A stretch of DNA of 64,000 bases from Virgibacillus dokdonensis (GTDB lineage Bacteria > Bacillota > Bacilli > Bacillales > Amphibacillaceae). This document shows, in pieces, positions 5,939-63,967 of the stretch. How positions within the stretch are numbered: the first letter of the stretch is position 1; every line of letters begins with the position of its first letter. The notes under the pieces were generated by a model. The model saw only the letters and a list, made by a program, of their open reading frames with translations. It was not told where the DNA came from and did not search any database. The translations under genes were made by a program, and so were the position numbers. The stretch is from assembly GCF_900166595.1 (NCBI RefSeq), contig NZ_LT745763.1, positions 653,315 through 717,314 of the forward strand. The letters run 5' to 3'.

Positions 5939-5993
5939 GAAAGTATAGGTTTAAAGGTTTATAGGATAAGAAAAACGATAGCCTCCGTCATGA
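5931..5993 (+). repeat. family A intergenic repeat, truncated copy
   Basis: About 63 bases match the 5' two thirds of the family A element (CTATAGGAAAGTATA..., TTTAAAGGTTTATAG, GATAAGAAAAACGATAG). The 3' hairpin/T-run that full copies carry is absent. It lies between purF and purM inside the operon and contributes the purF stop codon. Confidence 0.8.
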
Positions 5994-6063
5994 AATAATT
6001 AAGGTTAGAGTGAAGGCTTATGCAGCATTAACTTTAGATGATAGAAAAGGAGAAGTGACCATA

Positions 6064-7080: not shown

Positions 7081-7652
7081 GTCGGGTGAAGGCAGCCGTA
7101 TTTGCTTCCGGGGCAGGCAGTAATTTTCAAGCCATGCTTGACGAAAGTGACTTGGCTTGTGAGATCGTTTTATTAATCTGTGACAGACCTGAGGCAGCCG
7201 TCATAGAAAAAGCAAGGCAACATCAAATTCCTGTCTATCAGTTCGACCCGAAGCAATATGCCACGAAAGAAGCATATGAAAGAGAATTGGTGACTGTATT
7301 AAAAAAAGCGCGTGTCCAGTGGATTTTTTTAGCAGGATATATGCGTATTGTAGGTTCCTATTTACTACATGCGTATCAAGGTAAAATCGTGAATATCCAC
7401 CCTTCGTTGTTGCCCGATTTCCCTGGGAAAGATGCGATTACGCAAGCTTTTGCAGCGAAAGTGGACAAAACAGGGGTAACCATTCATTTTATCGATGAAG
7501 GTATTGATACAGGACCGATCATCGCTCAACAAACAGTCGATATGTATCCAGATGATACGATTCGTTCATTAACAAAACGCATCCAGCAAGTCGAGCATAA
7601 GCTATATCCAAAAATAATTAAACAATTAGTACAAAATGAGGGAGAACTATGA
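7077..7652 (+). CDS. purN: GAR formyltransferase
   Basis: PurN transfers a formyl group from 10-formyl-tetrahydrofolate to GAR. The 191-residue product has the fold start [13 protein letters not shown], the catalytic region [12 protein letters not shown] and the signature [16 protein letters not shown] with its catalytic Asp. The length is normal. The ATGA overlap with purM and again with purH shows it is an internal operon gene. Confidence 0.95.
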
Positions 7653-9181
7653 AAAAACGAGCATTAATAAGTGTATATGACAAAGAAGGAATTACATCGT
7701 TTGCAAATGAATTAGTCCAGGCAGGATATGAGATTATTTCAACAGGTGGAACGCTCCATACATTACAAGCAGCTCATATTCCAGCAACTGCTGTGGAAGA
7801 TATAACTGCTTTTCCAGAAATATTAGATGGTCGGGTTAAAACATTGCACCCAAACATTCATGGTGGATTACTCGCAAAACGGGGGAACAAAGCACATCTG
7901 AAAGAGCTTGAAGTGAATGCTATTACGCCAATTGATCTTGTTGTTGTTAACCTTTACCCCTTTAGGGAGACGGTAACGAACAAAGCAGCTTCTCATGAGG
8001 AAATCATTGAAAATATTGATATTGGTGGTCCTTCGATGTTGCGAGCAGCGGCTAAAAACTATCAGGCGGTAACCGTGGTTGTTGATCCAACCGATTACGA
8101 AAGCGTACTCCAAGCATTGCAAACTGGTGAAGTTACGTTAGAACAACGTCAGCAGTTAGCTGCGAAGGTATTCCAACATACAGCAGCATATGATGCACTT
8201 ATTGCCTCTTACTTTACAGAAAGCACTGGAGAAGCATTTCCAGATCATTATACGATTACATATGAAAAGGTACAGACGCTACGTTATGGAGAAAATCCAC
8301 ATCAAGCAGCCGCTTTTTATAAGCAACCGGTTACGAAACAGCAAGGATTGGCTACAAGTGAACAATTGCATGGGAAGGAGCTTTCCTATAACAACATCCA
8401 AGATGCGAATGCGGCTTTAGAGATTTTGGCAGATTACAACGCACCTACAGCTGTCGCGGTAAAACATATGAATCCATGTGGAATTGGGACAGCAGATACG
8501 CTTGCAAAAGCATTTGCACATGCGTATGCGGCAGATCCTGTTTCCATATTTGGGGGAATTGTTGCTTGCAATCAAATAGTGGATAAGGAGACGGCGCTGC
8601 AGTTAAGCGACATCTTTTTAGAAATTGTAATCGCACCAGGCTTTACAGAAGAAGCACTGCGAATATTAACTGAAAAGAAAAATATTCGTCTTATGAAATT
8701 GCCTCGACAAGTAAATAAAGTAATCGAAAACAAATATACATCGGTTGTTGGTGGTATGTTAATTCAAACGAAAGATGAGGAACAAATTACAGCCTCCGAT
8801 GTTACTGTTGCTACGAAACGAGAGCCCACGGAAAAAGAGAAGGAGCAATTACTCTTTGCGTGGAAGGCAGTCAAACATGTGAAATCCAATGCGATTGTGT
8901 TGGCAAAAGAGAATCGAACGGTCGGTATTGGTGCAGGACAAATGAATCGAGTTGGCGCTGCAAACATTGCCATTGAGCAAGCGAAAGAGCATGCAGTAGG
9001 AGCAGTTATGGCTTCGGATGCATTTTTCCCTATGCCAGACACAGTGGAAGCCGCTGCGAAAGCAGGAATTACTGCTATTATTCAGCCAGGCGGTTCTAAG
9101 CGCGATCAAGATTCCATTGATGTTTGTAACCAATATGGGATTGCAATGATTTTTACGGGCATACGTCATTTCAAACATTAA
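7649..9181 (+). CDS. purH: bifunctional AICAR formyltransferase / IMP cyclohydrolase
   Basis: PurH carries out the last two steps to IMP. The 510-residue protein has an N-terminal MGS-like IMP cyclohydrolase domain (IISTGGT, DGRVKTLHP) and a C-terminal AICAR transformylase domain with the motif VAVKHMNPCG, followed by SIFGGIVACN. Length and architecture are as expected. The ATG overlaps purN by 4 bases behind a GAGGG site. Confidence 0.96.
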   Translation: MKKRALISVYDKEGITSFANELVQAGYEIISTGGTLHTLQAAHIPATAVEDITAFPEILDGRVKTLHPNIHGGLLAKRGNKAHLKELEVNAITPIDLVVVNLYPFRETVTNKAASHEEIIENIDIGGPSMLRAAAKNYQAVTVVVDPTDYESVLQALQTGEVTLEQRQQLAAKVFQHTAAYDALIASYFTESTGEAFPDHYTITYEKVQTLRYGENPHQAAAFYKQPVTKQQGLATSEQLHGKELSYNNIQDANAALEILADYNAPTAVAVKHMNPCGIGTADTLAKAFAHAYAADPVSIFGGIVACNQIVDKETALQLSDIFLEIVIAPGFTEEALRILTEKKNIRLMKLPRQVNKVIENKYTSVVGGMLIQTKDEEQITASDVTVATKREPTEKEKEQLLFAWKAVKHVKSNAIVLAKENRTVGIGAGQMNRVGAANIAIEQAKEHAVGAVMASDAFFPMPDTVEAAAKAGITAIIQPGGSKRDQDSIDVCNQYGIAMIFTGIRHFKH

Positions 9182-15674: not shown

Positions 15675-21035
<5,361 letters not shown>

Positions 21036-40377: not shown

Positions 40378-41226
40378 ATGTGGGTACCTAGAGCTTTATC
40401 AATTGCGGGCTCTGCTGCAAGGGGAGGTGCTGGGATTCAAGCTGATTTAAAAACTTTCCAGGAGTTAGGTGTGTTTGGTCTAAGTTCTGTTACTGGTATT
40501 GTTGCGTACCATCCAGATACGAATCAGAATGTATTCCCTTTAGACTTAAGTGCTATTAAAGCACAGGTATATACAGCGCTTCGTGACGTCGGGGTAGATG
40601 CAATAAAAACAGGCATGCTCTATACAAAGGAGAATATTTGCCATGTAGCCAAGTGGATGGAAGAGGCTGACACGCCCCATCTTGTTGTGGACCCGGTCAT
40701 GGTCGGTAAAATGGATACACCTCTGTTAAAAGTCGATGCTATTAATACGCTTAAAACAAAACTAATACCTTTAGCAACAATTATTACACCAAATATGCCA
40801 GAAGCCGCATTATTACTAAAAGCGAATCAACCACTTACAACGGTTGATGACTTAAAACTAGCAGCAATAGAATTAAAAAAATTAGGTGCAAAATATGTCC
40901 TTGTCAAAGGAGGTCGCCTCAAAGGTCCAGCTGTTGATGTGCTATATGATGGTGATAAATTACATATGTTTGAAGTGCAGCGGATTGATACAATTCATAC
41001 AAACGGAGCAGGATGTAGCTACTCTGCAGCAATTACAGCCCAGCTAGCAAAAGGTAAACCTGTCCAAGAAGCTGTAAAAGAAGCGAAAAAGTTTATTACT
41101 GCAGCTATTCGACATTCCATTGCATTTAAGCAAGGCGTAGGCCCTCCAGACTTTGCTGCATATCATAGGTTTGGTGGAGAAGCAGTCAAAGAAAAGATTG
41201 TAGAATATAAGAATGAAGAATACTAG
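40378..41226 (+). CDS. PdxK/ThiD-like kinase lacking the lid cysteine
   Basis: Ribokinase-fold kinase of the PdxK/ThiD family (pyridoxal or hydroxymethylpyrimidine kinase). ATG 40378 follows GGGAGG and gives 282 residues. Motifs: GGAGIQADLKTFQELGVFG, DAIKTGML, VVDPVMV, ITPNMPEA and NGAGCSYSAA. Compared with the second copy at 55941, GSDSSGG is changed to GSAARGG and DPVMVCKG to DPVMVGKM, so only one of the two cysteines of the cysteine-pair pyridoxal kinases remains. Substrate is therefore open. It follows the aminotransferase gene by 178 bases. Confidence 0.8.
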   Translation: MWVPRALSIAGSAARGGAGIQADLKTFQELGVFGLSSVTGIVAYHPDTNQNVFPLDLSAIKAQVYTALRDVGVDAIKTGMLYTKENICHVAKWMEEADTPHLVVDPVMVGKMDTPLLKVDAINTLKTKLIPLATIITPNMPEAALLLKANQPLTTVDDLKLAAIELKKLGAKYVLVKGGRLKGPAVDVLYDGDKLHMFEVQRIDTIHTNGAGCSYSAAITAQLAKGKPVQEAVKEAKKFITAAIRHSIAFKQGVGPPDFAAYHRFGGEAVKEKIVEYKNEEY

Positions 41227-43094: not shown

Positions 43095-43671
43095 TTAAGT
43101 GTTGACGTACCAAAAGAATATGATAAAGTGTACTTAAATTAACGGGGCAGTTTCATGGTGCGAAATGTTCCTAGTTACCAACATCATTCTCTGGAATTGA
43201 AGGATTATATTGAAGAATCGAATAAAGACGTAACGCTTGAAGGGTTCTCTCTTAGTCTTAGTTAGTAAGAAAGACAGTGCTAAAAACTCGTGAAGAGGCG
43301 TAAGAATTTACCGTAACAGTGAAATTTACCTCTGACGAAAACCTACCCCACGGGGTGGTGTAGATTATGATCCTTGGGTTGAATGAATATGGTACGTTTG
43401 CAAACAAATCTAAAAGGAAAAGACTATGCTTTCGAACACAATGTCATAAACAAGCAATTTAATTTTAGAAGTAAGCAAAGTCAAATGTAACAATACATAG
43501 AATGGAATAAATTGGATTTTTTGGAACGCCATAGGAATGAAAGCTTCACGTACGATGTGAACAGGGGAAAAAGGAGAGATAACTTCAAACCCTTACCTAT
43601 CTGTAAGAAATAGGGTTTACATTTTTTGTGTGGTTTGGCTATTTATAATCCTGAAGGAGGTAGTGATTATT
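43095..43671. other. 577-base gap after the IS remnant
   Basis: Contains TAATTAAGTGTTGACGTACC right after the transposase stop, resembling an IS3-type end. Short frames at 43154-43264 and 43386-43490 lack ribosome-binding sites. A hairpin AAACCC / GGGTTT with T-rich tail lies at about 43589-43627. Confidence 0.4.
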
Positions 43672-50945: not shown

Positions 50946-51041
50946 ATTATAGGAAAGTATAGAGTTTTAAAGATTATAGGATTAGAAAAACGACAGCGTT
51001 TTTCCGCTAGAAAGATTTGGCGGTAAGCCAAGTCTTTCTAA
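50946..51041 (+). repeat. family A repeat, full copy
   Basis: ATTATAGGAAAGTATAGAG, AGATTATAGGATTAGAAAAA and hairpin TTGGCGGTAAGCCAA followed by TCTTTC. It starts just at the end of the preceding terminator. Confidence 0.85.
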
Positions 51042-51143: not shown

Positions 51144-51357
51144 ATCTACTAATATTCCATTTAGACGAGAAAAAAGCCCCCAATGAAGGAGACTACACCA
51201 TATGTTTTTTAGCAAGAACAATTTAACGCTTTTATCGATAAAAGCATTCATCGATTTATTAATAAACTAAACAATGCGTCACCTCGTTAAATAACAAGAT
51301 TTTATAAATGTTAAATAAACCCTTTTAAATCAACGTTAAATTATGTATTGACAAAAC

Positions 51358-51386
51358 AAAAAAACAGGCGTAAACTTATGATTGCA
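51358..51386 (+). promoter_or_regulatory. sigma-A promoter of the tyrP-tyrDC operon
   Basis: Perfect -35 TTGACA (51358-51363), 17-base spacer, -10 TAAACT (51381-51386; 4 of 6). The leader to tyrP would be about 300 bases; no T-box consensus is visible in it. Confidence 0.7.
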
Positions 51387-51394
51387 AGTTAACT

Positions 51395-51406
51395 TGTGAG
51401 TGCTTT
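51395..51406 (+). promoter_or_regulatory. perfect palindrome at the start-point, candidate operator
   Basis: CAAGTTAACTTG is its own reverse complement and lies about 9-20 bases after the -10, where a bound repressor would block initiation. Its AGTTAACT core is the same as the centre of the E. coli trp operator; a TrpR-superfamily gene lies at 59270 in the same gene set. Confidence 0.5.
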
Positions 51407-51692
51407 CACTAAACAGCAATAGATGAGATATCTTTTTTACGTACGATAAAAAATACGTATTGGAGAGGTATGATGGATAAACTTTAATTCACGTTTTGAA
51501 TTATATGTGAAACATCAAACATTTGCTGTTTCCATGTGTAGTTGTTAGTCAGAGATCACGGGGAATGATTTTGTTCATCCGTTCTCTAAGTAGAAATTCT
51601 TTCATTTTTATATGAACTTCCTAGGTATACAGTCATATGAAAATGAGATGCATCTTTAAGTAACAAGTTGAAAAAGGAAAGAAGGAAAATTT

Positions 51693-53126
51693 ATGGCTAA
51701 AACAAAAAGCCTAACACTTTTTGGGTTGATCGGTATTACGATGGCTTTTTTTGGTACGGTACGTAGTGTGCCAACACTTTCCATAACTGGATGGACACAA
51801 ATTTTTTATATGTTAATTGCGGCAGTTCTATTTGCATTGCCAATCGCTTTGATGTCTGCTGAACTCTCTACAGGCTGGCCAGAGGAAGGCGGACCTACAG
51901 TTTGGGTGAAGAACGCATTAGGTGAGAAATGGGGATTTGTTACCTCATGGTTACTATGGGTTCAAATGTTTTTTGGTATGGTCATGGTTGCGTCTACAGT
52001 AGGTGTGTTATTTGGATACGTTGTTAATGCACCAGAGCTATCTTCAAACAATTACTTTATTTTTGCAGTTATTTTAATATCTTACTGGGGCGTGACGATA
52101 TTAAATCTCAAATTTGATATGGTAAAAGTGGCTGGTAACTGGGGAGCTATTATCGGTGTTTATATTCCATTCGTTATCCTAGTTGTTCTAGGTGTTATCT
52201 ATATGATTAAGAATGGTATTCAACCAAATAGCTATTTAGGAGATTTTAAACCGAGTGATCTTGTTCCGAATTTTAAAGACTTAGGTAGCTTAACTTACTT
52301 ATCAGGAATTATCTTTATTTTTGCAGGTGTAGAAATCTCATCTGTGCATGCAAATAATATCGAAAATCCTAAACGTAATTATCCAATTGCTGTTATAGCA
52401 TCTGTTCTTTTGTTGGTTTTCTTTAATATTGTCGCTGGTTTAACTGTTTCAAACGCAGTACCAGTAGGTGAATTGGAGTTAGCTAATATTACACAACCGT
52501 ACATGATTTTTTCTGAAAACTTGGGTATCCCATCCATTTTCGTTAATATCATTTCCTTAATGATTTTAATTGGGGTGTTAGTCCAATTAAGTGCATGGGT
52601 ACTTGGCCCAAGTAAAGCGATGATCAAAGTTGCGGATGAAGGTAACTTGCCTAAATTCTTTCAAAAAAGAACGGAAAAAGACATTCCGATAACCTTTGTA
52701 CTAATTCAAGCAATTGTTATTTCTCTAGTATCTTTCTTGTACGTAGTTGTTCCTGATGTGAATAGTGCCTTTTTAATTATTACAATTACAACAACCATTT
52801 TATATTGTATTGTGTATGCATTGATTGCTATTTCAGCAATCCGCTTACGCTATAAAATGCCAGAAGTTGTACGTCCATTTAGATTAGGAAATAAAGGAAA
52901 TGGATTAATGTGGTTTGTTTCCATTCTTTCTTTAATTAGTGTAGCAATTACACTTACTGTCAGTATTATACCACCATCTATTTTACAACCTAGTCAGTAC
53001 ACAGGTTATATTATTTATCAAATAGCAGCTACAGTAATAATGGTAGGTATAGCTCTTTTTATTCACAAATGTAAAAAACCAGAATGGAAGAAAGAAACAA
53101 CAACTAATCATAAAAAATGTAGCTAA
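51693..53126 (+). CDS. tyrP: tyrosine/tyramine antiporter (APC family)
   Basis: Twelve-span amino acid/amine antiporter of the glutamate:GABA antiporter-like APC group. It would exchange external tyrosine for tyramine, exporting a proton equivalent and a net positive charge. The 477-residue start (LTLFGLIGITMAFFGTVRSVPTL, ALMSAELSTGWPEEGGP) closely resembles remembered enterococcal TyrP. It is 44 bases ahead of tyrosine decarboxylase in the same direction. GAAGGA site. A glutamate/GABA role is the main alternative but the partner gene argues against it. Confidence 0.85.
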   Translation: MAKTKSLTLFGLIGITMAFFGTVRSVPTLSITGWTQIFYMLIAAVLFALPIALMSAELSTGWPEEGGPTVWVKNALGEKWGFVTSWLLWVQMFFGMVMVASTVGVLFGYVVNAPELSSNNYFIFAVILISYWGVTILNLKFDMVKVAGNWGAIIGVYIPFVILVVLGVIYMIKNGIQPNSYLGDFKPSDLVPNFKDLGSLTYLSGIIFIFAGVEISSVHANNIENPKRNYPIAVIASVLLLVFFNIVAGLTVSNAVPVGELELANITQPYMIFSENLGIPSIFVNIISLMILIGVLVQLSAWVLGPSKAMIKVADEGNLPKFFQKRTEKDIPITFVLIQAIVISLVSFLYVVVPDVNSAFLIITITTTILYCIVYALIAISAIRLRYKMPEVVRPFRLGNKGNGLMWFVSILSLISVAITLTVSIIPPSILQPSQYTGYIIYQIAATVIMVGIALFIHKCKKPEWKKETTTNHKKCS

Positions 53127-53170
53127 AGAGAAAACGATAGATTTCGTGATATTAATTGGAGGATTAGAAA

Positions 53171-55033
53171 ATGAAAACTGAATTACAAGACCACAATTTA
53201 AAAGCTTTATTCTTAGGAAGTAAAGGTGAAAATGTAGATTTATTTAAAGAACTATTACTAAAAATGATTGATGAACATGTGGGGTGGCGTCAAAACTATC
53301 AGCCGCAAGACTTACCAGTAATTACGCCACAAGATAAAAGTTCAAAAAGTTTCCAAGAAACTGCTGATCATGTACGTAGTGTATTTAATGTTTTATCTTC
53401 TAAACTTCGTACGAACTCACTTCCATGGCATACAGCAGGTCGTTTTTGGGGACATATGAATTCTGAAACATTAATGCCATCTATCATTGCTTATACAACT
53501 GCCATGTTATGGAATGGGAATAACGTAGCATATGAATCCTCACCAGGCACTTCACAAATGGAAGAAGAGGTTGGTCATGAGTTTGCTGCTCTTATGGGAT
53601 ATAAAAAAGGAGAAAGCTGGGGACATATTTGTGCTGATGGCTCTATTGCCAACCTTGAAGGTCTTTGGTACGCAAGAAATATGAAATCTCTTCCTTTAGC
53701 TATTAAAGAAGTTGCTCCTGAATTTGTAGCAGGTAAAACGGAATGGGAATTACTTAACATGTCTACAGAAGAAATTCTAGATATTCTAGATCAAATTCCT
53801 GAAAAAATAGACGAAGTGAAAGAGCATTCTGCACGCAGTGGGAAAAACCTGCAAAAACTAGGTAAATGGTTAATTCCTCAAACCAAACATTATTCTTGGT
53901 TAAAAGCTGCTGATATTATCGGTGTAGGACTTGACTGTGTTGAAGCTATTGATGTGGATGATCATTATCGAATGGACATTGATAAATTAGAAGCAAAAAT
54001 CCGCGAATTGGCAGCTGAAGAAATTCCAGTTCTTGGTGTGGTTGGGGTAATTGGAACAACCGAAGAAGGACAAGTCGATCGTATTGATAAAATGGTAGCA
54101 TTACGAGACAAATTAGCTAAAGAAGGCATTTATTTCTATATACATGTAGACGCTGCTTACGGTGGCTATGCCCGTGCGATATTCTTGGATGAAAATAATA
54201 ACTTTATAGATTACGCGAAAATGGAAGAAGTACATGAGAAATTTAACGTTTTCACAGAGAAAAACGAATGGCTTACCGAAGATATTTATCATTCTTTCAA
54301 AGCGATGAGTGAAGCGGAAACCATTACAATTGACCCGCATAAAATGGGGTATATTCCTTACTCTGCTGGTGGTATTGTTGTTAAAGATACGAGAATGCGT
54401 GACGTGATTTCTTATTTTGCCACATATGTATTTGAAAAAGGTGCAGATATTCCTGCTTTACTTGGTGCTTATATGCTAGAAGGATCGAAAGCAGGTGCTA
54501 CTGCGGCTGCAGTATGGACAGCCCATCAGGTACTACCATTAAATGTAACAGGATATGGTAAATTAATCGGTGCAAGTATTGAAGGTGCTTATCGTTTCTA
54601 TCATTTCTTACAAGGAAAACAATTCAAAGTTGGCGATAAAACCATTCATGTTTATCCATTAACAAAACCTGACTTTAATATGGTTGACTATGTATTTAAT
54701 GAAGAAGGAAATACAGACTTAGAAAAAATGAATAAGCTTAATCATGATTTTTATGAACAAGCTTCTTACGTTAAAGGTGGATTATACAATAACGAGTTCA
54801 TTACTTCACATACAGATTTTGCGATTCCAGACTATGGAAACAGTCCATTGTCATATGTTAACAGTTTAGGATTCAGTAAAGAAGAGTGGGATCGTGAAGG
54901 TAAGGTTACAATACTTCGTGCTTGTGCTTTATCACCGTATGCATATGACAAAGATGTCTTTGATGAATATGCTAGCAAGATAGAGCAAGCAATTCAAGAA
55001 AAACTTGAAAAAATTTATGCTGTTGTAAACTAA
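53171..55033 (+). CDS. tyrDC: tyrosine decarboxylase
   Basis: PLP-dependent group II decarboxylase that converts tyrosine to tyramine and CO2, consuming a cytoplasmic proton. The 620-residue length is that of TyrDC/TdcA of lactic acid bacteria, longer than the roughly 465 residues of glutamate decarboxylases. Long stretches match remembered enterococcal Tyr[58 protein letters not shown] (Asp for the pyridine nitrogen) and the PLP lysine in [16 protein letters not shown] near residue 390. GGAGGATTAG precedes the ATG. Some activity on phenylalanine is common in the family. A hairpin follows the stop. Confidence 0.92.
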
Positions 55034-55161
55034 TGAAGTCCTATTAAAGAATCAGTTTATTAATAGCCAATTGGTTGTTAAGGAGGCTAGAGGGGATGAT
55101 TTTATCACGCTATTACAATCATCCCTCGGCTTCAATTGATTTGGAAATGTCCTTTTCTTAC

Positions 55162-55255
55162 ACTATAGGGAAATATAAAGTTATAAGGTTTATAGTATAA
55201 GAAAATCGACAGCGTTTTTCCGCCATAAAGATTTGGCGGTAATTCAATTTTTTTA
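55162..55255 (+). repeat. family A repeat, hairpin decayed
   Basis: ACTATAGGGAAATATAAAG, GGTTTATAGTATAAGAAAA, CGACAGCGTTTTTCCGCC are intact; the 3' arm has changed to GGTAATTCAATTTTTTT, so the terminal stem is lost. Confidence 0.8.
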
Positions 55256-55415
55256 ATGATTATTGATGATTGTTAAAATGTAAATGTTTACCTTTAAAGT
55301 AAATGACAAGTACTAGACTACCTTCTGTAAACAAGGTAATCTCAATAATAGGAAATAATAATAGTAGTAAAAATAGTACTTATGTTCTTTGACAACCATT
55401 ATATATAATTTTAAT

Positions 55416-55466
55416 ACTATACGTTTATAGTATAAGAAAAGATTGGTGAGAAGCCAAGTTTTTTCT
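55416..55466 (+). repeat. family A repeat, short copy
   Basis: ACTATACGTTTATAGTATA, AAGAAAAGATTGG and AAGCCAAGTTTTTTCT with internal deletions. Confidence 0.65.
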
Positions 55467-55486
55467 TCAAGGAATAAGAAAGTATA

Positions 55487-55695
55487 AAATTTGTTGCTTT
55501 TGGATACCGATTTAACGGAATAGCCACGTCCGGCTCCATCGCCCAGCAACTAGGCGACTTCACTCCATTGCCCTAAGCTAAGTCATCATCGGTTCGTGCT
55601 AAATAGGAAGGTGGACTAAAGACGGGCTTGCCGGAGGGCGCCGTTATACTCCTGTTGCAGGAGCATGATTCCTAAAAATTTTGTTGATTCGTTCC
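55487..55695 (+). repeat. family B intergenic repeat, copy 2
   Basis: High similarity to 14651-14905, including CCCAGCAACTAGGCGACTTC, GACTAAAGACGGGCTTGCCG, GGAGGGCGCCG and CTCCTGTTGCAGGAGCATGA. Its 3' end is cut at GATTCGTTCCACT, where a family A copy joins. Confidence 0.85.
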
Positions 55696-55787
55696 ACTAT
55701 ACGAAAGTATAAAAGTTTAAAGGTTTATAGTATAAGAAAAACTACAACTTTCGCCATAAGACTTGGCGACAAGCCAAGTTTTTCTAA
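55696..55787 (+). repeat. family A repeat, full copy joined to family B
   Basis: ACTATACGAAAGTATAAAAG, GTTTAAAGGTTTATAGTATA, and terminal hairpin CTTGGC-GACAA-GCCAAG followed by TTTTTCTA. Confidence 0.88.
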
Positions 55788-55940
55788 ATAGGTTGTTGAA
55801 AAGTATTGTAAATAAGCCTAGTTATGTGAATCTATTTGTGAATTATTTAACAATTACATGTAACGCGTTCTAGCATATAGTAATCTTCCATGAAAAGTTA
55901 CAAGATACAATATGCAGAAAGCTGTTAAGGAAGTGAAAAA

Positions 55941-56759
55941 ATGACAATTAAAAAAGTATTAACGGTTGCAGGTTCTGATTCAAGTGGTGGTGCAGGTTTG
56001 CAAGCCGATCTGAAAACATTTCAAGAATACGGAACTTTTGGCTGTACTGCTATCACGAATCTCGTCACGATGGATCCCAAAAATAATTGGAATCATCGAG
56101 TGTATCCCGTTGATGAGACGACAGTTCGGGAACAATTGGAAACAATCTTCTCTGGTAGTCCGCTAAATGCTATGAAAACGGGGATGTTAGGCTCTACAAA
56201 TATCATAAAGATTGTAAGTGAAATGATTGATCAATATGAAATGAAGAATGTTGTAATTGATCCGGTGATGGTTTGTAAAGGAGAAGATGAGCCTTTGCAC
56301 CCGGAAAATGGGGTTGCTATCCGCGATTATCTTTTACCGAAAGCAACTATCGTAACGCCTAATTTATTTGAAGCTGCTCAACTATCTAGTATGTCTGCAA
56401 TCCGTACAGTTGCTGATATGAAAGAAGCAGCGAAAAAGCTGATAAACCTTGGCCCAGAATATGTTGTTATTAAAGGCGGAAAAAGTTTTGATGGCAATAA
56501 AGCAATTGATTTACTTTATGATGGGTCTGCTTTCACTTTTTACGAAGTAGAGAAAATCAATACGAATTATAATCACGGTGCTGGATGTACATTTGCAGCT
56601 GCTATCACAGCAGGATTGGCAAAAGGTTTCTCTGTAAAAGAATCGGTAGCAAAAGCAAAAACATTTACCACCGAAGGTATTAAGGCTGGATTTGCCTTTA
56701 ATGCTTTCATTGGACCAGTTTGGCATGGAGCATATAATAGAGCAGTTCTATCTGATTAG
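55941..56759 (+). CDS. pdxK: pyridoxal/pyridoxine kinase PdxK
   Basis: Ribokinase-fold kinase of the ThiD/PdxK type that phosphorylates B6 vitamers to PLP. The 272-residue protein has AGSDSSGGAGLQADLKTF, MKTGMLGS, DPVMVCKGEDE and NHGAGCTFAAA, so both cysteines of the cysteine-pair pyridoxal kinase group (lid and active site) are kept. It closely resembles B. subtilis PdxK. AAGGAAG site. Placed between tyrDC and nhaC, it may supply the PLP that tyrosine decarboxylase needs. Confidence 0.9.
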   Translation: MTIKKVLTVAGSDSSGGAGLQADLKTFQEYGTFGCTAITNLVTMDPKNNWNHRVYPVDETTVREQLETIFSGSPLNAMKTGMLGSTNIIKIVSEMIDQYEMKNVVIDPVMVCKGEDEPLHPENGVAIRDYLLPKATIVTPNLFEAAQLSSMSAIRTVADMKEAAKKLINLGPEYVVIKGGKSFDGNKAIDLLYDGSAFTFYEVEKINTNYNHGAGCTFAAAITAGLAKGFSVKESVAKAKTFTTEGIKAGFAFNAFIGPVWHGAYNRAVLSD

Positions 56760-57261
56760 TTCTATGATTTTACTGAGGATTTAGAATCGTAAAGAATTTC
56801 GTCTTGCTTACTAGACTATCTCTTTGTATATATCACGCTGTAGAACTGTTGTCTCTTAAGTTGAGGGTAAACGTTGCTTCCATCGGCTAAATATATGCGG
56901 AGTTGGAGGGAAATGTCCATTGACTGACACGTTGCATTATTGTCCTCTTTTGTTAGGCCATGTTCTATGAACATGGCATCTATCGTTCCGTATTAGGAAA
57001 TTGTGAAATTTTAGAATTTACTTAAGTAATACTACAAATTTCGGAAGACGGGACTAGAAGCGCAGTTCTATCCTGCTTATGTGATATGGGCAGCTTCCAA
57101 TAGTGTAGGGAATTACTCATGGCGTAAATTCAATACTTTTTACTTTAATCAATCAACGTGCCAATGTCTTTAAATGTAAAAGAAAACAGGATTGTGCTAG
57201 TACTAATTAAATTATTAAAGTAGTAATTCTCAGATCGTTTAGGTCGTAAGGAGTTTATCAT
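56760..57261. other. 502-base gap before nhaC
   Basis: No gene. Hairpin GCCATGTTC / GAACATGGC (56958-56978) is perfect with a 3-base loop but lacks a T-run. A very decayed family A-like piece lies at about 56990-57050. Confidence 0.45.
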
Positions 57262-58635
57262 ATGAAAAGAGATATAACGTTAAAAGAAAGCATCTTTCTA
57301 CTAGTATTATTATTATTGATTATAGGTATTAGTATAATAGGTTTGGATTTGCCTCCGCAAATTCCGATTTTATTCGCAGTAGGAATTGTTATCCTTTTTG
57401 CTAAGATGAAAGGTGCTTCATGGGAAGTTGTTCATAAGGGAATTGAAAATGGAATTATACCTGGTCTGATCCCCATCATTATCTTTATGCTTATTGGTGT
57501 CTTAATAAGTGTTTGGATTTCAGCAGGAACCATTCCAACTATCATGGTTTATGGGTTAGGGATTTTATCAGCGAAATTTTTCTTACCTTCTGTGTTTGTT
57601 ATTTGTGCACTTGTTGGTATTTTAGTAGGTAGTTCGTTCACAACCATTTCAACTATAGGTATTGCGTTTTTAGGTATGGGACAAATGATGGAATTTAATA
57701 TTGCGATGACTGCTGGCGCTATAGTGTCAGGAGCTTATGTCGGGAATAATATATCTCCTTTATCCGATACAGCCAATTTGGCTTCTGCTATAGCGGAAGT
57801 GGATTTATTTGAACATATTAAAAATATGTTGCGAAAAATTGTTCCTGCTTTTGTTATTTCACTTATCTTTTTTATTATAATTGGACAAACAAAAGCGGGA
57901 GCGACGGAAAGTAATATTAATGAATTAGTAGATACATTATATTCTAATTTCAATATTTCTATGGTGTCCCTAATACCAGCACTCATTTTATTTTTGTGTG
58001 CGTGGAAGAAGATACCTGCTATTCCAACACTTCTAATGAGTATTGCGGTTACCGTTGTTATTCAATATATATATTATCCACATACCAGCTTTTCTAAAAT
58101 CGCTAGCCTTATGCAAGATGGATTTGTTTCGAATACAGGAACAGAAACGGTAGATGTTTTGCTTACCAGGGGTGGTATGCAAAGTATGATGTGGTCTGTT
58201 TCGCTAATTATCCTTGCTTTGACATTAGGAGGACTGTTAGTAGAATTAAAAATTGTTGAAACGTTAATATCAAAAGTTCAAGGTCTTGTTAGTACAAAAG
58301 GGAAATTAATTTTAATGGCTGGATTAAGTGCGGTAGGTATAAATATCGTTCTTGGAGAACAGTATTTATCCATTATTTTGCCAGGTAAAGCATTTAAATC
58401 GCAAGTGGAGGCAATAAATCTTGATCCCAAAAAACTCTCAGCTATTTTGGCAGATGCTGGGGCAGTAGTTAATTCACTAATTCCATGGGGAGTAAGTGGT
58501 GTGTTTATTACTGGAACATTGGGGGTTTCTACATTAGAGTATGCACCATTTGCTATCTTTTGTATAACTGCTCCAATTATAAATGTATTATTTGGTTTTT
58601 TTGAAAAAGAGAAGGGATTACCTCCTCTCTCTTAA
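57262..58635 (+). CDS. nhaC: NhaC-type sodium/proton antiporter
   Basis: Eleven- or twelve-span antiporter. The 457-residue protein has the NhaC core (SWEVVHKGIENGIIPGLIPIIIFMLIGV-like repeats, GNNISPLSDTANLAS, LGEQYLSIILPGKAF). An nhaC gene also accompanies tyrDC and tyrP in lactic acid bacterial tyramine clusters. Exchange of sodium for protons, or possibly another organic ion, would link pH control with tyrosine decarboxylation. TAAGGAG site. Confidence 0.9.
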   Translation: MKRDITLKESIFLLVLLLLIIGISIIGLDLPPQIPILFAVGIVILFAKMKGASWEVVHKGIENGIIPGLIPIIIFMLIGVLISVWISAGTIPTIMVYGLGILSAKFFLPSVFVICALVGILVGSSFTTISTIGIAFLGMGQMMEFNIAMTAGAIVSGAYVGNNISPLSDTANLASAIAEVDLFEHIKNMLRKIVPAFVISLIFFIIIGQTKAGATESNINELVDTLYSNFNISMVSLIPALILFLCAWKKIPAIPTLLMSIAVTVVIQYIYYPHTSFSKIASLMQDGFVSNTGTETVDVLLTRGGMQSMMWSVSLIILALTLGGLLVELKIVETLISKVQGLVSTKGKLILMAGLSAVGINIVLGEQYLSIILPGKAFKSQVEAINLDPKKLSAILADAGAVVNSLIPWGVSGVFITGTLGVSTLEYAPFAIFCITAPIINVLFGFFEKEKGLPPLS

Positions 58636-58640
58636 ATAGC

Positions 58641-58681
58641 TATGGGGCAGATTACTTACAATATTTATATTCTGCTCCATA
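58641..58681 (+). terminator. hairpin after nhaC
   Basis: ATGGGGCAGA / TCTGCTCCAT (one G-U pair), 19-base loop, poor T-run. Confidence 0.6.
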
Positions 58682-59269
58682 CTTAACCTATGATATCTCA
58701 AGCCCACATTTACTTCTCTCTTGTATGATAGAATGGCAAAAATGTTAGGTTTTATAGTAGAAGCAAAACAAAGGCTTTTGCCATGCCAAAAGTATCTTGA
58801 GGGGGCAAGGAGAATAAGTTTAATTCGTTAAGGTTAAATGAGAAATAAAATATAGAAAAAATTACCAGTGTGTTTTAATGCTTAAAATAAATCCAAATAC
58901 CCTAAATGGTGTTATAATTAAATGTCGTTTTCTTTTATTAAATCATCATAATTGACTCTAATCTTACCTAATTAAAATGGGGGAATTTCTTTGGCTTTAT
59001 TATAGGTAGCCATGATGGGTGATATGTAGTGAAATATTATTCATTTTGAAATGGTATTGTAAGCTGCTAAACTGTTGCTTTTAATCAATAGGCTGAAAGC
59101 GTGAAATGGTTTACACCATAGGAAAGAATAAACTGTTAAGCTTTATAAGTGAAACGAAGGTGTTTTTCGCCATAAAGAGTTTGACGATAAGGCAAGTTTT
59201 TTTGAAGTCATTCTTTAATCCTTTGATGTGTTAATGATATTGGTAAAGATATAAACGGAGGTAAAAAAT
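58682..59269. other. 588-base gap before the YerC-like gene
   Basis: AT-rich; a family A fragment at about 58752-58792 and a fuller copy at 59115-59204. No gene. Confidence 0.5.
59115..59204 (+). repeat. family A repeat, diverged copy
   Basis: ACCATAGGAAAGAATAAAC, GTTTTTCGCCATAAAGAG and TTGACGATAAGGCAAGTTTTTTT; the terminal stem still pairs in part. Confidence 0.7.
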
Positions 59270-59572
59270 ATGCTTATAGATGAAATACGTGGAGAAGAAT
59301 TAGATGATTTTTTTTGCGCGTTTTTAGAACTTCAAACAATAGAAGAATGTTATTGTTTTTTTGATGATTTATGTACAGTCAATGAAATAAAGGCAATGCT
59401 TCAACGATTTAGAGTAGCAAAAATGCTTTATAATGATAACACATATTGTCAAATTGAAGATGAAACAGGGGCAAGTACAGCAACCATCTCTCGTACGAAA
59501 CGTTCATTATATCATGGGAATAATATGTATGATATTCTTTTCAGTCGGATGAAGAAAAGTATAGAGAGTTAA
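59270..59572 (+). CDS. second YerC/TrpR-like regulator
   Basis: 100-residue member of the YerC/YecD TrpR-superfamily group, paralogous to 14264-14560 (shared: EECY-FFDD, NEI, QR-RVAKML, ASTATISR helix-turn-helix). It is more diverged and cysteine-rich, with a shortened ELQTIEECYCFFDDL N-terminal part. AACGGAGG site. Placed between nhaC and tyrS, it is a candidate regulator for the tyrosine decarboxylation genes; an aromatic amino acid as effector is inferred only from the TrpR fold. Confidence 0.85.
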   Translation: MLIDEIRGEELDDFFCAFLELQTIEECYCFFDDLCTVNEIKAMLQRFRVAKMLYNDNTYCQIEDETGASTATISRTKRSLYHGNNMYDILFSRMKKSIES

Positions 59573-59764
59573 TGAAAAGTATCCAGAATTAGCATTAAAT
59601 GGTTGCCAAATGAAACGAAAATATAAATGATTATGGTATCATATTATAGACAAAGATAATTATTTATATTATGCTTAGAATGAGTTATGATGATATACTT
59701 ACTTGTGAACGTATGAACAAATGTTTGTTTTTAGTTTGAAGGGTTATATTATTTGTTACTTTTT

Positions 59765-59845
59765 TAGGAAAGTACAAGCGTTTACACGTAAAAGTATAAG
59801 AAAAACGATAATCGGCAAGTCTTGGAGTCAAGTCCAATTTTTCTG
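59765..59845 (+). repeat. family A repeat, diverged copy
   Basis: TTAGGAAAGTACAAGCG, AAAGTATAAGAAAAACGATA and AGTCCAATTTTTCT keep the element outline. Confidence 0.6.
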
Positions 59846-59900
59846 ATCAAATGTAGACAATAGCGAGGTCTCTTGTACGTATGAAACAAAAACAAAAACG

Positions 59901-59929
59901 TTGACAAATACATTTTTATTCACTATAAT
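59901..59929 (+). promoter_or_regulatory. sigma-A promoter of tyrS
   Basis: TTGACA (59901-59906), 17-base spacer, TATAAT (59924-59929): a consensus promoter ahead of the T-box leader. Confidence 0.85.
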
Positions 59930-59949
59930 ATTTTTAATCTTATACGACG

Positions 59950-60200
59950 CATACGATGAAGGAGCCTAGTAGCAAGCTTGTCACTGTTATTTAGAAAGCT
60001 AGGGGTGATGTGACCTAGTACAAACAATCTTGTGAATTACACTTTGGAGTATCTTAGCTTAACACTAAGCGGATTAGCAAACGATATAATTGCTGAGAGT
60101 GGTATCAATAGTTACGATTATTACTATTGATGCAATTTGGGTGGTAACACGGTTAGAATCGTCCCTATGTCTTTATGACATAGGGCGTTTTTTATTTTTT
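59950..60200 (+). promoter_or_regulatory. tyrosine T-box leader of tyrS
   Basis: Stem I features (AGAAAGCTAGGGGTGATGTG) and the specifier context GTGAAT-TAC-ACT at 60032-60043, with UAC (60038-60040) reading tyrosine. The T-box GGTGGTAACACGG lies at 60141-60153, and the terminator stem CCCTATGTC / GACATAGGG with a T-run at 60163-60200. Uncharged tRNA-Tyr would favour the antiterminator and tyrS expression. Confidence 0.88.
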
Positions 60201-60239
60201 AAGCTTATATAAGAAACTATACTAAAGGAGTGGAAAAGC

Positions 60240-61496
60240 ATGAATCTTATTGATGAGTTAGAATGGCGTGGAGCTATTAATCAACAAACAGATGCTGAAG
60301 GATTAAAAGATTTAATTGAAGAGAAAAAGATTTCTTTATATTGCGGTGTTGATCCAACTGGTGATAGTATGCATATTGGTCATTTAATTCCATTCATTAT
60401 GATGAAACGCTTTCAATTACACGGTCATCAACCGGTTATTTTAATTGGAGGAGCGACAGGGACTATTGGTGATCCTAGTGGACGCCAAACAGAACGGCAA
60501 TTACAAACATTAGAGAAGGTACAAAATAATGTTGATAAGCTAACGAAGCAAATGAAGAAATTATTCTTCGATGGTGATAGTGAACTTAGGATCGTGAACA
60601 ACTACGATTGGACACATAACTTAAGTATATTGGATTTCTTACGTGATTACGGTAAAAATTTTAGTGTCAATAATATGTTGGCAAAAGATATTGTCGCTAG
60701 CCGATTAGATAGTGGGATTTCGTTCACGGAGTTCTCTTACCAAATTTTACAATCTATGGACTTTCATCACCTATTTAAAGAAGAAAATGTACAATTACAA
60801 ATTGGTGGTAGCGATCAATGGGGCAATATTACAAGCGGATTAGACCTCATACGTAAAAAAGAGGGTCAGGATGCGAAAGTCTTTGGTCTAACCATTCCAC
60901 TTTTATTAAAAGCAGATGGAACAAAGTTTGGTAAAACAGCTGGTGGAGCAATTTGGTTAGACGCAGAAAAAACGACACCATACGAATTTTACCAGTTTTG
61001 GATTAACGCAGATGATAAAGACGTGATAAAATACCTGAAATTCTTTACGTTCTTAACGAAAGAAGAAATTGATGAATTAGAGAATAAAGTGAAAACAGAA
61101 CCGCATAAACGTGAAGCGCAAAAAGTGTTAGCAAAAGAAATGACAAAGTTTGTTCATGGTGAAAAAGCATTAACGCAAGCATTGAAAATTACGGAAGCAC
61201 TTTTTAGTGGAAATGTTAAATCATTAACAGCAGATGAAATTGAACAAGGATTTAAAGACATGCCTACTTTTCAAGCTTCCAAAGAAACAAAAAATATTGT
61301 CGACTGGTTAGTTGAGTTAGGTATCGAACCATCTAAACGCCAAGCGAGAGAAGATATTAACAATGGAGCTATTTCCATGAATGGAGAACGAATAACCGAT
61401 GTTAATACAGATGTAACAGCAGAAAACGCATTCGATGGAAAGTTTATTATTATTCGTAAAGGGAAGAAAAAATACAGCTTGGTAAAATTAGCTTAA
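60240..61496 (+). CDS. tyrS: tyrosyl-tRNA synthetase
   Basis: Class I synthetase that charges tRNA-Tyr. The 418-residue protein has YCGVDPTGDSMHIGHL (HIGH motif), GGATGTIGDPSGR, QIGGSDQWGNI, the KMSKS counterpart KFGKTAGG and a C-terminal S4 RNA-binding domain (PSKRQAREDINNGAISMNG). AAAGGAGTGG site. In tyramine-forming lactic acid bacteria a T-box-controlled tyrS heads the tyrDC cluster; here it stands at the far end of the set in the same direction. It may be a second, catabolic-cluster tyrS. Confidence 0.95.
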   Translation: MNLIDELEWRGAINQQTDAEGLKDLIEEKKISLYCGVDPTGDSMHIGHLIPFIMMKRFQLHGHQPVILIGGATGTIGDPSGRQTERQLQTLEKVQNNVDKLTKQMKKLFFDGDSELRIVNNYDWTHNLSILDFLRDYGKNFSVNNMLAKDIVASRLDSGISFTEFSYQILQSMDFHHLFKEENVQLQIGGSDQWGNITSGLDLIRKKEGQDAKVFGLTIPLLLKADGTKFGKTAGGAIWLDAEKTTPYEFYQFWINADDKDVIKYLKFFTFLTKEEIDELENKVKTEPHKREAQKVLAKEMTKFVHGEKALTQALKITEALFSGNVKSLTADEIEQGFKDMPTFQASKETKNIVDWLVELGIEPSKRQAREDINNGAISMNGERITDVNTDVTAENAFDGKFIIIRKGKKKYSLVKLA

Positions 61497-61733: not shown

Positions 61734-62426
61734 ATGCCTTCTTCTTGGAAAAGATCATTAGAACTAGCATATACAAATCATTACATTATTACGAAGGTGA
61801 ATGAACAGAAACCAGTTAATTGGTTATTACTAGATGTAGGTTTAGAAAATGTGGCAGAAGAGCATATTAACCAATCCTTAGATAATTTGCTTATTGGATT
61901 TAATCGATTGTTTAAGTATAAAAGTGTAAAGCAAGCTACATTAGGTTATTTTCGTATGCTGGATATAGTTAAACAAAATGATAGGTTCCATCCAAAAATT
62001 CATGTCTTGCTGCCAACGATGAAAAGCTATTTTCAAGGAAGATACTATATTAAACGTGATAAATGGTTAGAAATGTGGGCTAAAGCTTTAGGGGTTACTA
62101 ATGATCTATATGTAAATGTAAAAGTGATCCAACCTGAGGATAATAGTCATCGAATGGTAGAAAAAATGGAACAAGGTTTAGCAGTACTTTTGGATGTACC
62201 AGAAGCAAACAGACCTAAAAAAGATAAGAAAATTATTGAGACACGAAGGTTAATTGGGTACAGCAGGTTATTAAAAAAGGAAGCAGATCAACTACCTCCT
62301 GATTCAGACTTTTACCTAGATATAGCTCATTTACGTACAGACGATAGGATTGCAAATGTTGCTTTTGACAACATGCTCACTTGGCACCCTGGCTTAAGAA
62401 CAGAAAAAGAAAATCCTTTTATCTGA
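61734..62426 (+). pseudogene. rolling-circle plasmid Rep protein relic, N-terminally truncated
   Basis: The 230-codon frame matches the middle and C-terminal parts of pUB110/pC194-type Rep (Rep_1) proteins: WKRSLELAYTNHYIITKVNEQKPVNWLLLDV, the GFNRLFKYKSV block, a HUH-like site FHPKIHVLLP, and the end RRLIGYSRLLKKEAD. The N-terminal cysteine-rich part is missing (CPxCNWRR reduced to PSSWKR), and one histidine of the HxH pair is lysine, so it is probably inactive. No plasmid origin recognised. Confidence 0.75.
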
Positions 62427-62873
62427 AGGTAATGTCATAAGGGTAGCAGTTGCCTTCAATCTTGCTTGCGCTATGAAGAAGGCATGAAATTTTACGGTTT
62501 ATTTTGGATATAAGGTGCTGTAAGACTAGTCACTTTTGGGAGATGCAAACTGTACAAGCCTTAGTGATAGATAACAGCACCTAAAACCTCGATTTGTTAA
62601 CTTACAATTAGTGAAGAAAGAGTTGAAGTGGGTGAAATGACACCGCACTACCTTCCAACTTACTAAATCATCCTTCCATATTGGAACATAATGTACCCTT
62701 GAAAATAATAAATTAGTAAAGTATGAATACAACTAATAAAAGATTGGTAGGGCAATTCCCAATGTTTTAATGCCATCACCTAGGGATGGATAACTTTACC
62801 TATATACCTTGTATTACGATGTACTATGTGTTACATTATTTTAGAAAATAACAAAAAAGAGAAGGTGCTGAAA
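62427..62873. other. gap with long imperfect inverted repeat
   Basis: Arms GGTGCTGTAAGACTAGTCAC (62514-62533) and AGTGATAGATAACAGCACC (62566-62584) pair imperfectly over about 18 bases around a 32-base loop. No gene. Confidence 0.45.
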
Positions 62874-63236
62874 ATGGATAAAGAAATAATGAAAGGAAGT
62901 ATTGATATCCTGCTATTGTCTCTCCTCCAGAATCGTGATATGTACGGCTATGAGATGGTTAAGGCGTTAAAAAAAAATAGTAATGAACTGTATAACATGA
63001 GTGAGGGTACTTTGTATCCTGCTTTAAAGCGACTTGAAAATAAAGGCTGGGTCCAATCTTATTGGGGAGATTCGGAAAGTGGAGGCAGAAGGAAATATTA
63101 TCAAATTACCCAGCAGGGAAAAAACGAGCTAGCTAACAAACTGCAAGAATGGAATCAAATTAGCCATTTAATTAAGGTATGTTCGGAGGGATTAGGTTGG
63201 AGTCAACAATCGAAGCCTACATTCACAAAATTGTAA
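62874..63236 (+). CDS. PadR-family transcriptional regulator
   Basis: 120-residue winged-helix repressor: MKGSIDILLLSLLQNRDMYGYEMVKAL, SEGTLYPALKRLENKGWV, wing WGDSESGGRRKYYQIT, and a C-terminal dimer helix. ATG 62874 follows GAAGGTG. Its 3' end overlaps the VanZ-like gene by 40 bases, suggesting coupled translation. Confidence 0.9.
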   Translation: MDKEIMKGSIDILLLSLLQNRDMYGYEMVKALKKNSNELYNMSEGTLYPALKRLENKGWVQSYWGDSESGGRRKYYQITQQGKNELANKLQEWNQISHLIKVCSEGLGWSQQSKPTFTKL

Positions 63237-63967
63237 GTGAGCTACACTGTGGGGAAGAAGAAAAAAAAGACATGACAGATGAAATGAAAGATCATTTGTA
63301 TTTGTTGATACAAGAATATAAGGAAGATGGGTTTTCAAATGAAGTAGCCGTAAATAAAGCGTTAGAAACGTTTGGCGAACAAAAGCAATTAGCAAGCGGC
63401 TTACAAACATCTATTTCTCCTTTTCACAAATTATGCAAAATAACGACAGGCATTTTTTTCGGATTATATGTTCTTATCCTATTTTTTAAGTTCTTTTTGG
63501 AGCGCATGATTTTAACAGCGACTATAGTTAAAAGTGGTGACTTTTTTAACCCACATGTGGCTATTCCGGAAAATTTTACAGGTGCATTTGATGTTGAATA
63601 CATTCATTTAAATGCCAATTTTTTGCCCTTTAAAACGACGCTACAATATATCTTAAATGCAGATTCATATAACGTATCCATTATTATTGAAAACACCGTA
63701 GGGAATGCCCTTGTATTTTTGCCGCTAGGAATCTTTCTGCCGCTATTATTCCCAAAGTGCCATTCACTATTAAAAGTTTCTATAACTGTAACGATCATTA
63801 TCTCGGCGATTGAAAGCTTGCAATTGTTGTTATGCGTTGGTCAATTTGATGTGGATGACATTATCTTAGGAACGATTGGCAGTGGCATAGGATTTTTATG
63901 TTTCCTATTTTTCCAGCGCTTAAAGAATGAAATAACTGCAATACGACGTATAGAAAAAGAATTATAA
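63197..63967 (+). CDS. VanZ-like membrane protein with DUF1700-like N-terminal segment
   Basis: 256 residues with TTG 63197, 7 bases after GGAGGG; this start lies inside the padR frame. Residues 1-75 are a soluble HAAS/DUF1700-like helical segment (ELHCGEEEKKDMTDEMKDHLYLLI, KALETFGEQKQLA), then four or five spans ending with the VanZ motif QFDVDDIILGTIGSGIG. PadR followed by a protein with such an N-terminal helical domain is a recurrent pair in Firmicutes. Function unknown. Confidence 0.8.
   Translation: MESTIEAYIHKIVSELHCGEEEKKDMTDEMKDHLYLLIQEYKEDGFSNEVAVNKALETFGEQKQLASGLQTSISPFHKLCKITTGIFFGLYVLILFFKFFLERMILTATIVKSGDFFNPHVAIPENFTGAFDVEYIHLNANFLPFKTTLQYILNADSYNVSIIIENTVGNALVFLPLGIFLPLLFPKCHSLLKVSITVTIIISAIESLQLLLCVGQFDVDDIILGTIGSGIGFLCFLFFQRLKNEITAIRRIEKEL

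Follow-up and report, generated by a model that had tools for sequence, protein, structure and literature searches.

Within a 64,000-nucleotide stretch of the Virgibacillus dokdonensis chromosome (contig NZ_LT745763.1, positions 653,315 to 717,314; hereafter the window), part of a 4.6 Mb genome, lies a gene set of the tyramine-forming or tyrosine decarboxylase (TDC) type. tyrP, tyrDC, pdxK, nhaC, the YerC-like regulator gene hisR2, and tyrS are open frames on a single strand and are followed by a Rep-like gene, giving the order tyrP-tyrDC-pdxK-nhaC-hisR2-tyrS-rep. A first-pass annotation of this DNA had proposed a rearranged tyramine set with pdxK and a YerC/TrpR-like gene inside it, and this arrangement is indeed present. 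Its six genes all stand, while its interval closed one gene short and missed the Rep_1 homologue. The features are as follows.

51228..51245, no strand: palindrome GCTTTTATCGATAAAAGC, candidate HisR2 operator 5′ of tyrP (recurrence against shuffles)
51348..51376, plus: promoter-like TTGACA-17-TAAACT before tyrP-tyrDC (10/12, consensus match only)
51385..51396, no strand: palindrome CAAGTTAACTTG near the expected transcription start (exact matches in Virgibacillus only)
51693..53126, plus: tyrP, predicted tyrosine-tyramine antiporter (NF040513)
53171..55033, plus: tyrDC (tdcA), predicted pyridoxal phosphate (PLP)-dependent tyrosine decarboxylase (TIGR03811, 7cwx)
55941..56759, plus: pdxK, predicted ThiD-like pyridoxal kinase (NF009077, 2i5b)
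57262..58635, plus: nhaC family transporter, in the place of tyrT in PMC9413887 (TIGR00931)
59270..59572, plus: hisR2, TrpR-family regulator, YerC/HisR paralogue (TIGR02531, tree)
59901..59929, plus: promoter-like TTGACA-17-TATAAT before tyrS (12/12 consensus match)
59947..60169, plus: T-box leader of tyrS (RF00230, 107.2 bits; gathering score 93)
60163..60185, plus: terminator-like hairpin closing the T-box leader
60240..61496, plus: tyrS, sole tyrosyl-tRNA synthetase (TyrRS) found in the genome (TIGR00234, genome search, tree)
61734..62426, plus: Rep-like protein, N-terminally truncated Rep_1 homologue with broken HUH motif (PF01446, alignment, dN/dS)

Gene families and gene order

TyrP scores 786.5 bits with NF040513 (cut-off 630) and TyrDC 1164.2 bits with the equivalog model TIGR03811 (cut-off 905.3). 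The solved chains nearest to TyrDC are the decarboxylase entries 7cwx, 7cwz, and 5hsi (1029.4, 1026.7, and 965.9 bits), and the lysine of the HKM stretch is kept in the alignment with 7cwx. By family, the two proteins are a tyrosine-tyramine antiporter and a tyrosine decarboxylase. Further, TyrS passes TIGR00234 (433.7 bits; cut-off 113.8), the YerC-like regulator TIGR02531 (130.9 bits; cut-off 42.2), and NhaC TIGR00931 (395.7 bits; cut-off 370). With all families over their curated cut-offs, the earlier claim of a tyramine set of tyrP, tyrDC, nhaC, and a T-box tyrS in a Bacillaceae chromosome holds.

A system that decarboxylates glutamate or another amino acid (glutamate decarboxylase/GadC-like) could be mistaken for such a set, given that TyrDC and glutamate decarboxylases have the PLP decarboxylase domain in common and that GadC models also match TyrP, with 330.7, 297.5, and 216 bits. 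The respective cut-offs, 650, 640, and 673.5, are far higher. TyrDC obtains 28.2 bits with the model for glutamate decarboxylase (cut-off 380.4) and passes its own equivalog, with 7cwx and 5hsi among its nearest solved chains. At the level of families, we regard a glutamate system as extremely unlikely and rejected it. The placement that the first-pass annotation had suggested as a check agrees: TyrDC has no glutamate decarboxylase score over the cut-off and groups with other tyramine-cluster TyrDC in the tree. For the nhaC family gene, two readings are evenly poised. Its product may be a tyrosine transporter (TyrT) instead of a sodium/proton antiporter, in which case the set would have no sodium step. 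PMC9413887 gives the order tdcP-tdcA-tyrT, with apparently the same gene called tyrT, a putative tyrosine transporter, and the window gene sits in that place; moreover, an ArcD arginine/ornithine model matches it with 339.1 bits, under the cut-off of 650. On the other side, the TIGR00931 cut-off is passed by the window protein and by three further cluster copies tested, and PMC5672081 calls the Enterococcus faecalis gene a sodium/proton antiporter. In the examined parts of these two papers, neither name has an assay basis, and a sodium/proton role of the window protein would follow from the family name only.

PdxK passes the pyridoxal kinase model NF009077 (402 bits; cut-off 385). It also passes TIGR00097, a hydroxymethylpyrimidine phosphate kinase domain model (263.1 bits; cut-off 204.95), so that a thiamine-type activity may apply. 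Its nearest solved chain, 2i5b (321.5 bits), is labelled phosphomethylpyrimidine kinase. Another Phos_pyr_kin (ThiD/PdxK-like) gene lies at 40420–41148 of the window, and the genome has four strong matches to this family.

The enterococcal order tyrS-tdcA-tyrP-nhaC is absent from the window, and the order differs also in other Bacillales and Vagococcus loci. Gene order is therefore taken as a variable trait, with the window locus as one variant.

Distribution of the cluster and the HisR2 regulator

A scan of public genomes yielded 73 loci with TyrDC relatives, 25 in Bacillales and 48 elsewhere. All 25 Bacillales loci carry tyrP and tyrS, 23 carry nhaC, and 16 the Rep-like gene. pdxK and the regulator, whose conservation in relatives had been named as a check on the first-pass proposal, are present in 19/25 and 21/25. 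Four loci lack the YerC-like gene, of which two, L064 and L037, are uninformative, as their sequence stops short of the position where it would lie. Outside Bacillales, the YerC-like gene occurs in 16 of the 48 loci and the Rep-like gene in none; pdxK was found in two, namely Isobaculum (55% identical, beside the decarboxylase) and L083 (32%, farther off). The clusters L037, L038, and L042 (Neobacillus, Gottfriedia, and Paenibacillus apiarius) have no detected regulator, pdxK, or Rep-like gene; in two of them tyrS comes directly after tyrDC, and the sequence of L037 stops shortly after tyrS.

Among named loci, the closest is L031 of Virgibacillus chiguensis, which shares the gene order of the window and whose TyrDC is 99% identical. 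Besides the window genome, TyrDC exceeds the cut-off in 2/100 relatives, both of the same genus, and the gene set is thus patchy. In the TyrDC tree (FastTree), the Bacillales form a group of 29 rows (support 98), within which Virgibacillus and Bacillus chungangensis join (99). They stand next to the Vagococcus, Isobaculum, and Enterococcus moraviensis relatives and apart from the lactobacilli and the E. dispar type. Bacillus chungangensis shares 94% identity with the window in TyrDC and 89% in TyrS, whereas its ribosomal protein S4 is 77% identical to that of Virgibacillus genome G007, itself 100% identical in the window genome. This disparity points to spread of the tyramine cluster in part by horizontal transfer. 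A second S4 match in B. chungangensis (L247; 49%), lying about 6 kb from rpsD, is without the first 71 residues and has stop codons.

The window genome holds two YerC/HisR copies, the cluster copy being paralogous to the resident HisR. In a HisR tree built on few columns (FastTree), a branch with support 100 separates 21 non-cluster copies from the window copy; the third YerC copies of G104, G106, G110, and G113 and the second cluster copy of G105 entered this tree only if in a cluster locus. Across 35 genomes, YerC is missing from the six carriers that have no copy in their cluster (three Enterococcus, three lactobacilli), seven carriers of the Vagococcus, Isobaculum, and E. moraviensis type have one, and Bacillales carriers have two or three, with the exception of Gottfriedia, whose one copy is that of the cluster. 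The cluster-free Virgibacillus genomes G007, G002, and G003 have one. YerC has been named HisR, a histidine repressor, and control of tdcP-tdcA-tyrT by a paralogue, HisR2, was predicted in 2022 (PMC9413887). The window regulator fits this HisR2, already linked to tdc clusters as a prediction. Consequently, the TrpR-family regulator proposed by the first-pass annotation is present, yet it is no new partner of such clusters. Two leucine-to-phenylalanine changes mostly separate the cluster copies of both orders from the resident HisR.

Upstream of tyrP, the palindrome GCTTTTATCGATAAAAGC recurs (p≤0.05, 200 shuffles per region) in 16/22 other Bacillales regions of regulator-bearing loci, Virgibacillus being left out as the motif source; the 22 regions stem from 21 loci of related species, with L064 entered twice, so the 16 are not independent events. 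It is found in 0/17 Enterococcus/Vagococcus/Isobaculum regions, a group that seems to have its own form of the palindrome, and in 0/20 regions of loci without a detected regulator, three of them Bacillales. This test and that of the published HisR consensus (see below) left out the first tyrP region of L174r, which is short, and regions with TyrP matches below 43% (with three exceptions) or below 41%. The promoter-like sites of this region are no commoner than in shuffles; sequences like that at 51348..51376 are seen upstream in L033, L034, L035, L036, and L041. The palindrome CAAGTTAACTTG, resembling a TrpR operator, was rejected as a general HisR2 site on account of its exact matches in Virgibacillus only; many Paenibacillus loci have AGTTAATCGATTAACA at the corresponding place. 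No T-box is found before tyrP in the window at the Rfam gathering score.

Cluster TyrS, resident TyrS, and the Rep-like protein

At the specifier position of the tyrS T-box, a UAC triplet can be read by eye. Six further loci (five clusters, and G007 with its orphan tyrS) were scanned, and all have a T-box upstream of tyrS. The cluster tyrS is not an extra copy but the only TyrRS match in the window genome. Eight Virgibacillus genomes were compared, with G006 being 75% complete. Very probably G001 and L031 are one assembly and hence not independent of each other. A cluster-type TyrS (at least 91% identity) occurs in four of them, G000, G001, G004, and G007. The other four (G002, G003, G005, and G006) have only a 57–58% identical copy, whose gene follows a penicillin-binding protein gene in 4/4 and is trailed by rpsD in G002 and G003; rpsD is outside the stretch read in G005 and G006. 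This old slot is occupied differently in the carriers of the cluster type: in G007 it holds a tyrS frame truncated by roughly 112 residues at its start; in G004 a remnant of 62 residues is left, close to a frame that carries domains of a reverse transcriptase and a group II intron maturase; and G000 and G001 show no tyrS match at E 1e-3. A T-box precedes the 57–58% copies in 4/4 intact loci, and none is detected at the gathering score before the truncated G007 copy.

In the TyrS tree, the cluster TyrS form one clade (68 rows, 99/97; bootstrap not quite settled) apart from the old Virgibacillus copies. The clade also takes in second copies of four carriers. The one departure is L099, the Clostridium tarantellae cluster, near which a distant TyrS outside the clade is encoded. 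The tree did not include the second copies from G113, G114, and G131–G133. The G007 fragment groups with the old copies (99/100) and the full G007 copy with G004 (100/98). G007 has no TyrDC, and its lone tyrS with T-box lies between the same neighbours as the cluster. Relative to G004, it lacks a segment that starts ~140 bases past sdr and stops ~580 bases short of tyrS; the stretch holding the Rep-like gene is missing as well. In the simplest reading, G007 would have lost the catabolic half by deletion. Taken together, the cluster TyrS appears to have displaced the resident TyrS in Virgibacillus, with the direction of events deduced from the slots and the tree.

The Rep-like protein 3′ of tyrS comprises 230 residues and matches PF01446 with E 2.4e-31 (109.5 bits against 33.2). 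Its gene is the next mapped gene after tyrS in G004 and in all 16 Bacillales loci that have it, at a distance of mostly 40–115 bases and of 185–774 bases in L059, Virgibacillus, and B. chungangensis. The protein starts just behind the CxxC motif, and the CxxC part is absent in 17/18 cluster rows, those covering the start; only a C-terminal portion is present in the Gottfriedia row. Whereas the Rep proteins of the Bacillus plasmids p1414 and pFL7 read HPHFH at the HUH motif, the third residue is R, K, N, T, or V in 17/17 covering cluster rows. With the first HUH histidine replaced and the N-terminus truncated, the Rep-like protein is probably nuclease-dead. A Rep-like match is present in 23 of 398 sampled Bacilli genomes, at 58% identity or more only in the window genome and G443, where the gene lies between tyrS and tyrP; all other sampled matches are at most 40% identical. 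In the sampled genomes, the Rep-like gene is thus seen only beside a cluster tyrS.

Two alternatives bear on these genes. The cluster TyrS might be native to Virgibacillus and the 57–58% copies newcomers. T-boxes on both kinds of tyrS mean that regulation cannot distinguish the native copy from the newcomer, while position and descent do speak: the 57–58% copy sits behind the penicillin-binding protein gene in all four genomes, with rpsD downstream in two, remnants or nothing lie in that slot elsewhere, and the Virgibacillus cluster TyrS nest among the cluster TyrS of other genera, with the old copies grouping with a non-cluster TyrS from Gottfriedia. We therefore consider nativeness of the cluster TyrS very unlikely. 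The second alternative, that the Rep-like gene is a functionless piece of a plasmid in decay, is suggested by its truncation, the broken HUH motif, a frame of merely 93 residues in Gottfriedia, and its absence from the G007 site and from 9/25 Bacillales loci. Against decay, the frame is open over 227–269 codons in 15 other Bacillales loci and G004, across several genera, and 42 positions are invariant among 15 sequences (L049 was left out of the alignment used for folding). Moreover, the ratio of nonsynonymous to synonymous substitution rates (dN/dS) is 0.10–0.25 in 9/10 pairs, four of them with dS >1.5, the tenth pair being saturated. The protein evolves faster than TyrS (dN/dS 0.015–0.063 in 8 pairs), and a functionless remnant is unlikely. 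We favor a domesticated Rep-like protein, the ratios showing purifying selection; a role at tyrS is proposed because of the gene's place, and binding of nucleic acid at the locus is our guess.

Many Paenibacillus loci read tyrS-rep-tyrP-tyrDC-pdxK-nhaC-hisR2, as compared to tyrP-...-hisR2-tyrS-rep in Virgibacillus. This circularly permuted order was considered as the sign of a moving rolling-circle element and rejected, as the Rep is truncated and its HUH broken. In B. chungangensis L174, two tyrP-tyrDC pairs (5010–8286 and 16529–19885; TyrP 94%, TyrDC 97% identical) flank the rest of the set as a partial tandem copy, L064 has a tandem pair, and a tyrS fragment follows hisR2 in Gottfriedia. 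Tandem duplication and loss would fit these as the cause of the order swap, in which an active Rep may have had an older role.

Several further observations were made in the window. A dispersed intergenic repeat ending in GGCGRTAAGCCAAGTYTTT has nine matches with at most 3 mismatches (0.06 expected from shuffles). Six, at 51019, 51124, 55235, 55445, 55765, and 59183, sit in cluster gaps between sdr and tyrS; the others are at 10949, 13084, and 25757, and related repeat families exist. At 62826–63967, a PadR regulator is followed by a membrane protein that resembles VanZ and matches HAAS weakly; in all Virgibacillus loci examined, PadR is next on the right to the cluster or to the orphan tyrS. 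A group II intron D1-D4-5 match lies at 43197–43386.

Interpretation and comparison with known systems

The locus is best explained, with high probability in our view, as a Bacillales form of the TDC cluster under HisR2 and T-box control, in which the cluster TyrS has replaced the resident one and which is accompanied by a domesticated Rep. TyrP would import tyrosine and export tyramine, TyrDC would decarboxylate tyrosine with PLP and consume a proton, PdxK would supply the PLP, and the NhaC-family carrier could support tyrosine supply or ion balance. HisR2 may control tyrP-tyrDC via the palindromes upstream of the tyrP promoter. The tyrosine T-box is expected to raise TyrRS when charged tRNA-Tyr falls, which would protect protein synthesis during tyrosine decarboxylation. 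The logic of Enterococcus physiology (PMC5672081, PMC3315439) is thus expected here, plus PLP from a linked kinase. By replacing the resident enzyme in Virgibacillus, the cluster TyrS would tie the host to the locus, and the domesticated Rep may bind nucleic acid beside tyrS.

Several points weigh against this interpretation. While tyrP and tyrDC lie only 44 bases apart, the spacing of pdxK, nhaC, hisR2, and tyrS is about 500–910 bases; these longer gaps with their dispersed repeats make separate promoters likely and weaken joint regulation of the whole set. The published general HisR consensus reaches p≤0.05 in 4/41 regulator-bearing regions, all Enterococcus and 0 Bacillales, and in 0/20 regions without regulator; otherwise no better than shuffles, it was rejected as the operator. 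Bacillales cluster copies retain the acidic residues of the helix that are proposed to bind histidine, so that loss of these effector residues was rejected for these copies and a changed effector of HisR2 is not favoured; in the Enterococcus/Vagococcus/Isobaculum HisR2, one acidic column is often changed. One TyrRS match over the cut-off is found in 18/32 carriers, and loss of the older copy is traced only in Virgibacillus. The single matches agree with E. durans, for which Southern hybridisation gave no second tyrS (PMC3315439). Finally, the direct deletion in G007 is something we infer rather than observe.

The gene set is of a known kind in a little-studied host, and its regulator had already been predicted in print. 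The literature searched, as far as its text was accessible, yielded no report of resident TyrRS displacement traced within a genus, nor of a conserved Rep-derived protein at a cluster tyrS. The findings suggest a way for a metabolic island to make itself indispensable, by taking over the role of an essential tRNA synthetase; within one genus, the old tyrS is seen intact, truncated, reduced to a remnant, or gone. A more far-reaching proposal, possible but on balance doubtful, is that the gene set is kept by its captured essential gene: once the cluster TyrS has displaced the resident TyrRS and the old copy decays, the locus could be trimmed to tyrS but no longer lost as a whole, and a nuclease-dead, domesticated nucleic-acid binder derived from Rep would regulate tyrS or the cluster. 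The analysis also brings to light a conserved plasmid-derived protein and places the tyramine set, best known from lactic acid bacteria, in Bacillaceae and paenibacilli as well, a range that would matter for fermented foods if the set is active.

According to the available text of PMC5672081 and PMC3315439, the E. faecalis and E. durans cluster tyrS-tdcA-tyrP-nhaC-2 has the same four core genes, a T-box tyrS with tyrosine specifier, and a cluster TyrS forming a distinct group, as in the window. In contrast, tyrP precedes tyrDC in the window, tyrS is at the far end, and pdxK, hisR2, and the Rep-like gene are added; the fate of the resident tyrS is traced here in relatives. A regulator paralogue adjoining the decarboxylase genes is likewise described in PMC9413887 for hisR2 and tdcP-tdcA-tyrT of Paenibacillus alvei, Carnobacterium maltaromaticum, and three Enterococcus (P. 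alvei DSM 29 corresponds to our L051). Candidate sites upstream of tdcP are given there, similar in position to the window palindrome, which is unlike the general HisR consensus of that paper; the portions available to us do not mention pdxK, the Rep-like gene, or loss of the resident tyrS. Further, the best plasmid matches to the window Rep-like protein are Rep_1 rolling-circle Rep proteins of small Bacillus plasmids. Those of p1414 (NC_002075) and pFL7 (NC_011396), each encoded by 1023 bases, are homologous to it over ~220 residues at ~34% identity. Unlike these plasmid proteins, the window Rep-like protein is without the N-terminal CxxC part and the first HUH histidine, and it is encoded on the chromosome, beside tyrS.

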